DNA of 64,000 nucleotides from Mesotoga infera (lineage in GTDB: Bacteria; Thermotogota; Thermotogae; Petrotogales; Kosmotogaceae). Shown in pieces: positions 59,759 to 64,000 of this stretch. Under the pieces are notes generated by a model. That model saw nothing but the letters and a program-made list of their open reading frames with translations, was not told where the DNA came from and did no database searches. A program made the translations under genes and the position numbers. Location: assembly GCF_900157305.1 (NCBI RefSeq), contig NZ_LS974202.1:1612001-1676000 (forward strand), read 5' to 3'. How positions within the stretch are numbered: position 1 is the stretch's first letter; every line of letters starts with the position of its first letter.

Positions 59759-60098
59759 GGTACTTCGCCCCCTTTTTTTAGAGATTTTTCTGGTAAATAT
59801 ACCAGAGTTTTCCTTCTTTATTGGTGTGGACAAAAAGATAAGAATGAAAAGAAATAATGGTTATTACTACAGAGCCGCTTACAGAGTAACCATTCCCTTT
59901 CAATTGTCAAACTAGCTGCTGCCTGTATATTATTATATACCATTAAAACCAAAAACCTAAATAGAGGTAGAATATGACTGTGTTTTTGCCGGCAACGAAC
60001 AATCATGACTCAAAGTCCCGAAACGATGAATGATATTGTTTTTCTAATGATATAATCGAATGAAACAATCATTAGTTATTTACTTGGGGGGTAAAATA
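59759..60098. other. 340-base intergenic region between divergent oppA and hydrolase genes
   Basis: AT-rich. On the minus strand a TTAGGT-17-TATAAT arrangement near 59935-59965 may drive oppA but is weak. On the plus strand TATAAT at 60051-60056 lies close to the hydrolase start with no clear -35. No gene is supported here. Confidence 0.45.
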
Positions 60099-61580
60099 AT
60101 GAGAAAAGCGCTGCTAGGATTGTTTGTATTGCTGGTCATTATTGCTTCTGGGATGACTTTTGAACAAAAGGGGATTACTGAGTTTTTTGACATCACGATG
60201 AACGATATCCTGGAGAAGTATGATATTCCCGGTGCCGTGCTTAGTTTCGTAAGCGATGGAGAGGTTTTATATGTTCAGGGTTACGGTTATTCCAATCTTG
60301 AAAGTAAGACACCGATGAAAGCCGATTCACTGGTACGAATCGGTTCTGTATCAAAGCTATTCACTTGGATCTCGCTGATGCAGTTATATGAACTCGGAGA
60401 AATAGATCTCGAGGCGAATGTCAATGATTACATTTCCGGGTTCAAAATTCCAGACACTTTCCCAAAACCGATCACAATTGAGAATCTATTGACGCATACA
60501 CCTGGATTTGAAGAAACGTCGTACAACCCGATTCAGTTCGAAGAATACACCGTGCAACCACTCGGGGAATCTCTAAAACAAATACCGGAGCGTGCATTTG
60601 AACCGGGAAAATTCGCGGCGTACTCGAATTATGGAACGGCTCTGGCGGGATATATCGTTCAAGAAGTCTCGGGTGTTGAATTCTCCGACTACGTGGATAT
60701 GAATATAATCGAGAAGCTCAGAATGAACAGCACAACCGTAAAGCAAGAACTCGAACCCGATCTCAGGGCGAGAATGAGCACGGGTTACTACTACGTGGAT
60801 GGAAGGAACGAGTCTCCGACTCCTTTCGAGAAAATCACCATCCCGCCCGCCGGATCAATCACATCGAGCGCCGGCGATATGGCGAAATTCATAATAGCCA
60901 ATATCCAGAAGGGGGAGTTCGAGGGAGAACGTATCCTGAACGAGGAGACCGCCGAATTAATGCAAAGTGTGCACTTTCGGCATGATCCAAGGCTCAACGG
61001 AATGTGTTATGGTTTCTACGAAATGAGTATGAACGGACTTCGATTGATCGGGCACGGCGGTGACACGGGTCTCTTTCACTCTCTCCTGGTGTTCTCTCCT
61101 GAAGACAACTGGGGATTATTCGTTTCCTTCAACTCAAATGGAAAAGGTTCTGCAAGAGATGCATTGCTCAATGCTTTCATAGACAGATTCTATCCCGCCG
61201 ATCGATCAATCGAAAGGAAGGAAGTCTCTTACTTCGATAAGATAAAGCTAACCGGTGATTACATATCTAACAGAAGAATCTTCTCTGATCCTTTTGAAAG
61301 ACTCAGGTCTTGGATGAATCCGGACATTACCGCTGAAATGTCGCCAAATGGAGATCTTATCATACAGGGCATAGAATACTGCTTCATCGACGATGACCTT
61401 GCGACAGCAAAGAATGAAAAAAGCCTCGTTGCTTTTAAAACCGAGGGCGCGAAGAGTTATTTGTTCCCCAATTCAGCACCGATGATCGCATTTGAAAAGA
61501 TACCCTGGTACATGAGCCAGGAACTGGTTGGAAGCATGATTTTTGTCCTGCTGGCAGGACTATTCATTTTGCTCCCTTAG
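60099..61580 (+). CDS. Serine beta-lactamase-like hydrolase (class C/AmpH fold), membrane tail
   Basis: 493 residues. Signal peptide 1-20, then a serine penicillin-binding fold: nucleophile S83 in GSVSK (K86), Y175 in YSNYGTAL, and GHGGDTG as third motif. PGAVLSFVSDGEVLYVQGYGY and ENLLTHTPGF are typical of the AmpC/EstB/DD-peptidase group. A linker of about 100 residues leads to one hydrophobic segment (VGSMIFVLLAGLFILLP) at which the protein stops. Some relatives carry several C-terminal helices, so the end may be truncated. ATG 60099 follows GGGGGGTAAAATA. Confidence 0.85.
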   Translation: MRKALLGLFVLLVIIASGMTFEQKGITEFFDITMNDILEKYDIPGAVLSFVSDGEVLYVQGYGYSNLESKTPMKADSLVRIGSVSKLFTWISLMQLYELGEIDLEANVNDYISGFKIPDTFPKPITIENLLTHTPGFEETSYNPIQFEEYTVQPLGESLKQIPERAFEPGKFAAYSNYGTALAGYIVQEVSGVEFSDYVDMNIIEKLRMNSTTVKQELEPDLRARMSTGYYYVDGRNESPTPFEKITIPPAGSITSSAGDMAKFIIANIQKGEFEGERILNEETAELMQSVHFRHDPRLNGMCYGFYEMSMNGLRLIGHGGDTGLFHSLLVFSPEDNWGLFVSFNSNGKGSARDALLNAFIDRFYPADRSIERKEVSYFDKIKLTGDYISNRRIFSDPFERLRSWMNPDITAEMSPNGDLIIQGIEYCFIDDDLATAKNEKSLVAFKTEGAKSYLFPNSAPMIAFEKIPWYMSQELVGSMIFVLLAGLFILLP

Positions 61581-61751
61581 AGGTTCTGAACTCAGTCCGA
61601 ACACATACGCAAAGCCTCATACCCGTCCTCGGAAAAACGGATGAGCCGTCCGCTCTTTTGAAGGGCGAATCCTGTCTGCGGATATTTTCCTCACCCTGAA
61701 ATTTCGTAATTGATTCTTTACATTTAATCCCGATAAAACTACTCACGTATA

Positions 61752-61780
61752 TTGACAAAGCCGAGTTAATTGGGTAGAAT
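61752..61780 (+). promoter_or_regulatory. Strong sigma-70-type promoter
   Basis: TTGACA (61752-61757), 17-base spacer, TAGAAT (61775-61780): a perfect -35 and a one-mismatch -10 at optimal spacing. Expected start near 61787. Confidence 0.75.
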
Positions 61781-61786
61781 TATATC

Positions 61787-61978
61787 AAGAAGAACAGGAA
61801 GACAAGAAGAACCTTTGCAACCCCCAAAGCTCAACCGGTCATTAACAACCAGACAAAGCACCTGAGCACCGCAATATGCACAGTCCAACATTAACCACAG
61901 ATTCTGGAACAGACGGACAGGCATGTTGAAACCCCCTGGAATATCCCGATTGATAGCCGCCGAAAGGCGGCTTTTTTT
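61787..61978 (+). ncRNA. Candidate small RNA of about 190 nt, family unknown
   Basis: The stretch lies between a near-consensus promoter and a classic terminator and contains no frame with a ribosome site. The longest, ATG 61875 by my count, gives about 17 codons. The sequence is rich in A and C in its first half. Possible stems are GCTCA with TGAGC (positions 43-47 and 77-81 of the transcript) continued by GGT with ACC, and CCAGA with TCTGG. The length would suit 6S RNA, but I cannot recognise its central bubble. It ends 17 bases from the convergent tex stop. Confidence 0.5.
61955..61978 (+). terminator. Rho-independent terminator of the candidate small RNA
   Basis: AGCCGCC, loop GAAA, GGCGGCT, then seven T. 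The T run is only on the plus strand, so it does not serve tex. Confidence 0.88.
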
Positions 61979-61994
61979 GTATCTGCAGTATTTT

Positions 61995-64000
61995 CTACGC
62001 CAGCAGTTCGAGCCCAATCCTCATTCGCTGCAGGTCAACCTCGATAATCTTCACTTTCACTATCTGGCCGACACTGAGTACCTCGAGAGGATCTCTGACC
62101 CTGTTACCCATCCTGCTTTTGTGGATGAGACCGTCCTGCTTCACGCCTATATCGACGAAGGCTCCAAAATCGACCACGTTTCTCACCGTTCCCTCTAGCT
62201 CCATTCCAGAGGCGAGGTCTTCCATGGTCAGTACGTCGGTTCTCAGCAGAGGTTGAGGAAGCTCTTCCCTGGGGTCAAGCCCGGGCTTTTTGAGCATGCC
62301 GATGACCTCTCTGACCGTTATCGGATTGAAGTTCTTTTCTTTTGAAAACTCTTCGACATCTATCCTCGCTAGTCTTTCCGGCAATTCGAGGCGCTTCTCG
62401 AAAAGCTTTTCTGAAGAGACACCTATCTTGTCCAGTAGTTCTCTGGCGATCGCGTAACTTTCGGGGTGGACGGCTGTTCCGTCTAGAGGCTCATCACCGT
62501 TTATGATCCGGCAAAAACCGGCCGCCTGTTCGAAGGCTTTAGGACCGAGACCGGTAACTTTCATTAGATCCTTCCTGTTTCTGAAGGGGCCGTTTTCGGA
62601 TCTGTATTTAACTATACTCGCAGCGATCTTCGGGCCAAGACCGGAGATGTATTTCAGAAGATGCTCCGAGGCCGTGTTGAGATTGACACCTACCATATTC
62701 ACAATCGACTCCACTTCTCTATCCAGGGCTTTCTTTAGTTCCGACTGGTTCACATCGTGCTGGTACATACCGACCCCTATCGCCTCTGGTGGTATCTTCA
62801 CATATTCGGCAAGCGGGTCCTGCACTCGCCTGGCGATGGATATCGCACCGCGGGTGGTTACGTCCTGATCGGGGAATTCTTCGATGGCTACTTTCGAGGC
62901 CGAATAAACGGAGGCACCCGATTCTGTGGTAATCATATATTTTATGGCCAGTCGATGTTCTTTTATGAGTCTGCTCACAAATTGTTCCGTCTCTCTTGAA
63001 CCCGTCCCGTTTCCGATTGATATGAGCTCCACCCCGAGAAGATTGGTCGCCTGGACGACCTTCATCGCCGAGCCAGCGTAATCGTTCTGTGGCGGAGTCG
63101 GGAAGATCACATCGTGGTAGAGCAGTGCCCCATCCCTTCCTATAACTGCCAGCTTACAACCTGTGCGGTAACCGGGGTCAATTCCCATAACGACTTTTTC
63201 TCCCAGAGGAGGTTGAAGAAAGAGGTCTCTGAGGTTTCTGGCGAAGACGTGTATGGCCCTGGTTTCGGCTTCTTCGCGTATTTGTGTTCTTACTTCTCTC
63301 TCTATCGAAGGAAAGAGGAGCCGTGAGAAGGAATCGATGGCCGCCTCTTCCAGCTCGCTATAATAAGTCAAAGAGTCGGTCCATCCCGCCAATCTTTTCA
63401 GAGAAGGCAGTATATCGAAAGGAAGCTCGAGGTGCACTTTGAGAATCTCTTCACGCTCGCCTCTGAATAGTGCCAGAACCCTGTGCGCTGCCAGGCGATT
63501 TATCGGCTGAGAGAAGTCATAGTAATCCCTGTACACGGCTCGTTCGTCTTCTGAATCGGTCTTCTCGCTCTTAATAATACCTTTGGTTTTCAGCTCGTTC
63601 CTGACTCGCTCCCTTATCATGATATCCTGTGCGAACTCTTCGGCCAGGATATCGCGAGCACCTTCCAGAGCCCCTTCGACCGTTGACACTTCTAGTTCGG
63701 CGTTTACGAAACCGATTATGAAGTCGTCATCTCTCTTCCTGGCAGTTTTAAGGAAGTCGGCCAGTGGCTGGAGTTGCTTTTCTCTGGCCTTGTCGGCCCT
63801 GGTTTTCTTCCTGGACTTGTAAGGCAGATAGAGATCTTCGACAACCTGGAGAGTGCCGGCCTCAACTATTCTGGTTTTGAGTTCGTCTGTGAGCTTTCCC
63901 TTCTCCTCTATCAGACGAAGAACCTCTTCCTTTCTGGCCTGAAGCTTTTTCATATACTCCAGTGTGTCAGCTATGTCTCTTAACTGTATCTCGTTGAGTT
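61995..64000 (-). CDS. tex: Tex-family S1 RNA-binding transcription accessory protein (N-terminus beyond window)
   Basis: About 668 codons of an expected 720-780; the frame is open to the right edge, where it reads LNEIQLRDIADTLEYMKKL, a conserved part of the Tex N-domain. In order: helical N-domain (EDLYLPYKSRKKTRADKA), YqgF/RNase H-like domain (VVMGIDPGYRTGCKLAVIG), helix-hairpin-helix (LNTASEHLLKYISGLGPKIA) and a C-terminal S1 domain (MELEGTVRNVVDFGAFVDIG, GLIHKSRM). Tex binds RNA and affects transcription and stress tolerance. ATG 63953 is internal, not the start. Confidence 0.93.
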   Translation of the reverse strand, partial: LNEIQLRDIADTLEYMKKLQARKEEVLRLIEEKGKLTDELKTRIVEAGTLQVVEDLYLPYKSRKKTRADKAREKQLQPLADFLKTARKRDDDFIIGFVNAELEVSTVEGALEGARDILAEEFAQDIMIRERVRNELKTKGIIKSEKTDSEDERAVYRDYYDFSQPINRLAAHRVLALFRGEREEILKVHLELPFDILPSLKRLAGWTDSLTYYSELEEAAIDSFSRLLFPSIEREVRTQIREEAETRAIHVFARNLRDLFLQPPLGEKVVMGIDPGYRTGCKLAVIGRDGALLYHDVIFPTPPQNDYAGSAMKVVQATNLLGVELISIGNGTGSRETEQFVSRLIKEHRLAIKYMITTESGASVYSASKVAIEEFPDQDVTTRGAISIARRVQDPLAEYVKIPPEAIGVGMYQHDVNQSELKKALDREVESIVNMVGVNLNTASEHLLKYISGLGPKIAASIVKYRSENGPFRNRKDLMKVTGLGPKAFEQAAGFCRIINGDEPLDGTAVHPESYAIARELLDKIGVSSEKLFEKRLELPERLARIDVEEFSKEKNFNPITVREVIGMLKKPGLDPREELPQPLLRTDVLTMEDLASGMELEGTVRNVVDFGAFVDIGVKQDGLIHKSRMGNRVRDPLEVLSVGQIVKVKIIEVDLQRMRIGLELLA

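Follow-up and report, generated by a model that had tools for sequence, protein, structure and literature searches.

Between a gene for a beta-lactamase-family serine hydrolase and tex in Mesotoga infera lies a span of about 190 nt, bounded by a promoter and an intrinsic terminator, and the question it raises is whether a small RNA gene is present there and, if so, what kind of RNA it would encode. We addressed this question within the window, that is, the whole 64-kb stretch of DNA analysed, and in the genomes of related bacteria. Both the promoter and the terminator were found exactly where the original prediction had described them (Table 1). The promoter scores 11/12 and is the top of five promoter sites within positions 60000-64000. 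Chance alone yields roughly one promoter of this score in every 64 kb. When a promoter scoring 11/12 or better had to be joined, no more than 300 nt downstream, by a stem with 6 or more bp (5 GC) and T5, the window contained one such combination and 30 random 64-kb sequences of equal dinucleotide content contained none. The original prediction ranked it among the best-formed transcription units in the window; it is the sole unit of this kind there. A genome-wide search for the promoter block, allowing up to 3 mismatches, recovered the two copies of the sRNA gene only, and promoter and intrinsic terminator are kept together as a conserved unit. It is very probable that the small RNA gene is real and previously uncatalogued.

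Table 1. Positions of the features discussed, in window coordinates.
Feature	Position	Strand	Remarks
Conserved upstream block	61717-61751	+	TTTACA...CCGATAA...TATAT; 12-locus alignment; possible regulator site
Sigma-70 type promoter	61752-61780	+	TTGACA-17-TAGAAT; conserved spacer (CCGAnTTnnTTnGGT)
-35 box	61752-61757	+	TTGACA
-10 box	61775-61780	+	TAGAAT
Predicted sRNA transcript	61787-61978	+	about 192 nt; putative start placed 7 nt past the -10 box
A/G-rich 5' tract	61787-61811	+	AAGAAGAACAGGAAGACAAGAAGAA, with ARN repeats; possible Hfq distal-face site
C-rich box 1	61811-61830	+	ACCTTTGCAACCCCCAAAGC; conserved in alignment; predicted mostly unpaired (0.72-0.94)
Conserved segment	61837-61845	+	GGTCATTAA; alignment
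C-rich box 2 position	61891-61900	+	TTACCCCCCA in most homologues; degenerate in window copy (TTAACCACAG)
Most conserved element (C-rich box 3 and TCCC box)	61920-61950	+	GGCATGTTGAAACCCCCTGGAATATCCCGAT; near-invariant in 11 copies; proposed main seed
Intrinsic terminator	61955-61978	+	7-bp GC stem, GAAA loop, T run
Terminator hairpin	61955-61972	+	AGCCGCC-GAAA-GGCGGCT
Terminal T run	61972-61978	+
tex	61995-63953	-	Pfam Tex domains found

A 246-nt stretch at this locus matches all 10 of the 10 Mesotoga genomes examined. The gene is present twice in two of these genomes, namely, that of the window (G000) and G003; in a further genome, G007, only the promoter and the first bases are visible, the contig ending there. 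A covariance model of the RNA, built from these same copies, confirmed 9 of the 10 genomes with best E values of 1e-38 to 1e-44. The same model found nothing convincing outside Mesotoga among 103 Thermotogota genomes; a search of 39 relatives with laxer filters yielded strong matches in Mesotoga only. The weak matches seen in other genera had E values between 0.004 and 0.5 and were taken as chance or terminator-only, and a match in G060 (E 3e-5) was dismissed, the seed being absent. In about 85,000 prokaryote species, the seed pattern matched five times outside Kosmotogaceae. All five matches fell within open reading frames, several of them encoding NPLENPD, and were considered chance; searches of viral contigs and of plasmid records returned none. 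Conservation in related Thermotogota had been proposed as a check, and it holds throughout the genus but not across the phylum. Judged by these sequence comparisons, the RNA is a genus-restricted sRNA family.

Conservation within the genus is stronger than that of the nearby comparison sites. In the seven orthologues on the degV side, the promoter has a mean pairwise identity of 89%, and the two halves of the RNA have 82% (5') and 87% (3'). At the same seven loci, the third codon positions of degV reach 61%, and upstream DNA lying 60-180 bp from the -35 box reaches 56%. Because promoter and RNA exceed both of these rates, we conclude that the unit is kept by purifying selection. The copies in G000 and G003 represent two paralogous lines, of which line a is 96% identical between the genomes and line b 72%; line b, therefore, evolves faster.

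What is conserved in the RNA is mostly linear sequence, namely, ACCCC(C)AAAG, GGUCAUUAA, UUACCCCCCA and, above all, GGCAUGUUGAAACCCCCUGGAAUAUCCCGAU. The consensus fold consists of the terminator helix and one weak helix without covariation, and no covarying helices or compensatory changes were detected in the fold of the homologues; the fold of the RNA is somewhat more stable than those of shuffled sequences (z -2.3, terminator included). In the most conserved element, the CCCCC box has a predicted mean unpaired probability of 0.69-0.94, and the conserved seed is accordingly predicted to be accessible and linear. Other parts are less constant: C-rich box 2 is deleted in the second copy of the window's genome (G000b), and an 11-nt part of the A/G-rich 5' tract is missing from the orthologues at the degV locus in the alignment.

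On this basis, we favour, with moderate confidence, the interpretation of the Mesotoga sRNA as a trans-acting base-pairing RNA, with C-rich seeds directed against G-rich mRNA sites and ribosome-binding sites as its presumed targets. The main seed, UUGAAACCCCCUGGAAUAUCCCGAU, would pair in trans with G-rich mRNA stretches, for example, Shine-Dalgarno regions of the AGGGGGU type; pairing through UUGAAACCCCCU would fall at G-rich ribosome-binding sites and would block translation of the mRNA, probably together with Hfq. The reverse complement of the main seed, AGGGGGUUUCAACAUG, reads as a Shine-Dalgarno-spacer-start arrangement. The hfq gene is present in 21 of the 21 genomes searched and the sRNA terminator carries a U run, so that Hfq plausibly assists this RNA; against the Hfq-linked reading, most orthologues have a shorter version of the A-rich, Hfq-like 5' tract. 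Translational repression is our best guess because of the C-rich seed layout, the presence of Hfq and the spacing in the complement of the seed. FsrA, RsaE, LhrC and IsrR all reach Shine-Dalgarno regions by C-rich seeds (PMC9410917; PMC4132741).

The search for targets is where an alternative gains some ground, namely, that the RNA does base-pair but is aimed at coding sequences or other RNAs rather than at Shine-Dalgarno regions. GGGGG occurs upstream of about 11% of 443 sampled genes. Across the 443 corresponding ribosome-binding regions (about 16% of one genome), the seed paired no better than dinucleotide-shuffled seeds, and no conserved mRNA target was found among these regions and the candidate genes. 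The absence of enrichment at the sampled sites counts in favour of this alternative; nevertheless, the studied sRNAs with C-rich seeds of this type mostly use Shine-Dalgarno sites (PMC4132741), and we regard the alternative as unlikely. The strongest individual target candidate encodes a substrate-binding lipoprotein of the BMP type and has AAGGGGGTATCAAC ahead of a TTG start; it was rejected, as this site is not kept in relatives. Separately, a rubrerythrin-like gene in two genomes carries AGGAGGTTTCAAATG at its ribosome-binding site, matching the seed complement at 11/12 positions (L130:402-413, L152:401-412), and is a possible target; a gene of this type with such a site was not found in the window's genome.

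The second alternative is a protein-binding RNA, either a diverged 6S RNA or an RNA that acts as a sponge for CsrA or another RNA-binding protein, with the conserved boxes serving as protein sites. The original prediction could not assign a family, and none emerged: at the gathering threshold, 0 Rfam matches were obtained in the window, the matches obtained at E<=10 were at chance level only, and a tRNA/tmRNA search gave none. It had further offered 6S RNA or a regulatory RNA as identities suited to the length. The regulatory half of that suggestion is strengthened by the conserved promoter, terminator and seeds, but the 6S half is not, there being neither a match to the 6S model (RF00013) at E<=10, the check originally proposed, nor the long closing helix with a central bubble, the 6S hallmark, in the consensus fold. 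Applied to the window's genome and 20 relatives, the same model finds 6S RNA in 0 of 21, that is, the 6S RNA of these genomes is either missing or too divergent for it. Because of this, the Rfam test alone is weak, and a 6S RNA of the group that is unaccounted for, together with the length of about 190 nt and the stability of the fold relative to shuffled sequences, speaks for a protein-binding RNA. However, apart from the similar length, the Mesotoga sRNA differs from 6S RNA in giving no covariance match and showing no rod-like structure, and the homologues display no conserved long-range helix; a CsrA sponge is further at odds with the loss of GGA sites from the second copies, where TGGAA has become TAGAA in both and GGAC has become GGTC in G000b. 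A 6S identity is disfavoured, and a protein-binding role in general appears improbable.

The position of the gene bears on a third possibility, a cis-acting antisense or 3'-end overlap RNA for tex. That tex is convergent with the sRNA, as predicted, is confirmed by the Pfam identification of the gene, and 17 nt separate the end of the sRNA terminator from the tex stop codon. Yet the predicted RNA stops short of the tex reading frame, and the neighbourhood is not constant. Copy a in G000 and G003 adjoins tex, whereas copy b is flanked by genes for a NUDIX protein and a carbon-nitrogen hydrolase (L013:1501-1707 in the window's genome). The remaining seven complete copies each have a convergent degV on one side and a divergent MFS transporter gene on the other. 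The sRNA is absent from the degV locus of G000 and G003 and from the tex loci of the other genomes. Given these different neighbours at different loci, the sRNA therefore acts independently of its neighbours, and a cis role at tex is very unlikely. The DegV name is a Pfam result; the TrmB, NUDIX, MFS and hydrolase names are our reading of the sequences. A fourth neighbourhood is seen in G007, where the promoter (L010:1501-1539) adjoins a gene for a TrmB-like regulator. In the window's genome, repeated GTCATCCCG / CCGGGCTCCGACCCGGGAT elements that resemble dispersed extragenic repeats lie downstream of degV (L194:2450-2900).

A small-protein gene, for example one starting ATGTTGAAACCCCCTGG... 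at 61923, has a conserved ATG in the best-conserved segment and a 91-aa open frame in the window copy to recommend it, but can be set aside almost entirely, because the frame that starts in the conserved segment is broken between copies: it ends after five residues in G000b (MLKPP*), lacks its ATG in G003b, is shifted in G001 and reads through the terminator. Neither of the ORFs that cross the sRNA, 91 aa on the plus strand and 83 aa on the minus strand, has a Pfam match, and the plus-strand frame is interrupted by a stop or shift in homologues, in agreement with the earlier statement that no credible ORF is present.

Returning to the base-pairing RNA, the DNA preceding its promoter points to regulated expression. 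Conservation continues beyond the -35 box for about 35 bp in the upstream direction, and this upstream block has 75% mean identity as opposed to 56% farther upstream. The sequence CCGA occurs at 61730 and 61761, the second copy inside the promoter spacer, such that the two lie 31 bp apart and flank the -35 box; the spacing, equal to about three helical turns, is present in nearly all copies. A core, ATCCCGAT, related to the CCGA motif, recurs within the RNA at 61943-61950. The CCGA repeat (61717-61780) is possibly a regulator site and possibly a coincidence. From the conservation of the upstream block, a transcription regulator acting there appears likely, and transcription of the sRNA is probably controlled through the conserved CCGA copies that flank its -35 box. 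In a more ambitious scheme, the RNA would be a genus-wide, Hfq-assisted master riboregulator in a deep-branching phylum from which few sRNAs have been characterised: by mimicking the anti-Shine-Dalgarno sequence, its C-rich boxes would compete for the ribosome-binding sites of the GGGGG type in a regulon, and a dedicated transcription factor would read the CCGA repeats. This scheme is speculative, and we consider it doubtful.

Among known systems, the iron-regulated FsrA of Bacillus subtilis and IsrR of Staphylococcus resemble the Mesotoga sRNA in being stand-alone RNAs with conserved, single-stranded C-rich regions (predicted) and an intrinsic terminator; IsrR has three C-rich regions. However, the Mesotoga sRNA shows no sequence relationship to either (no Rfam match), no known regulator site was recognised, and, unlike IsrR with its conserved stem-loops, it has none beyond the terminator. 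With the UCCC-motif sRNAs RsaE/RoxS and LhrC, it shares redundant C-rich seeds, and LhrC is multicopy (PMC4132741) as the Mesotoga sRNA is duplicated in two genomes. Again there is no sequence match, and the Mesotoga seeds, ACCCCC(C)U/A and AUCCCGAU, are mostly linear, in contrast to the loop contexts of RsaE/RoxS and LhrC.

Very little work has been done on regulatory RNA in Thermotogota: one sRNA is counted for the phylum in a 2022 review (PMC9029176), and only about a dozen unassigned ncRNAs were seen in T. maritima (PMC3636130). The RNA family described here is new, and its kind, as best read, is ordinary, a base-pairing sRNA. A strongly conserved stand-alone sRNA that is confined to the mesophilic genus of this phylum, in a host that carries Hfq, represents a clean system in which to test Hfq-sRNA regulation there.
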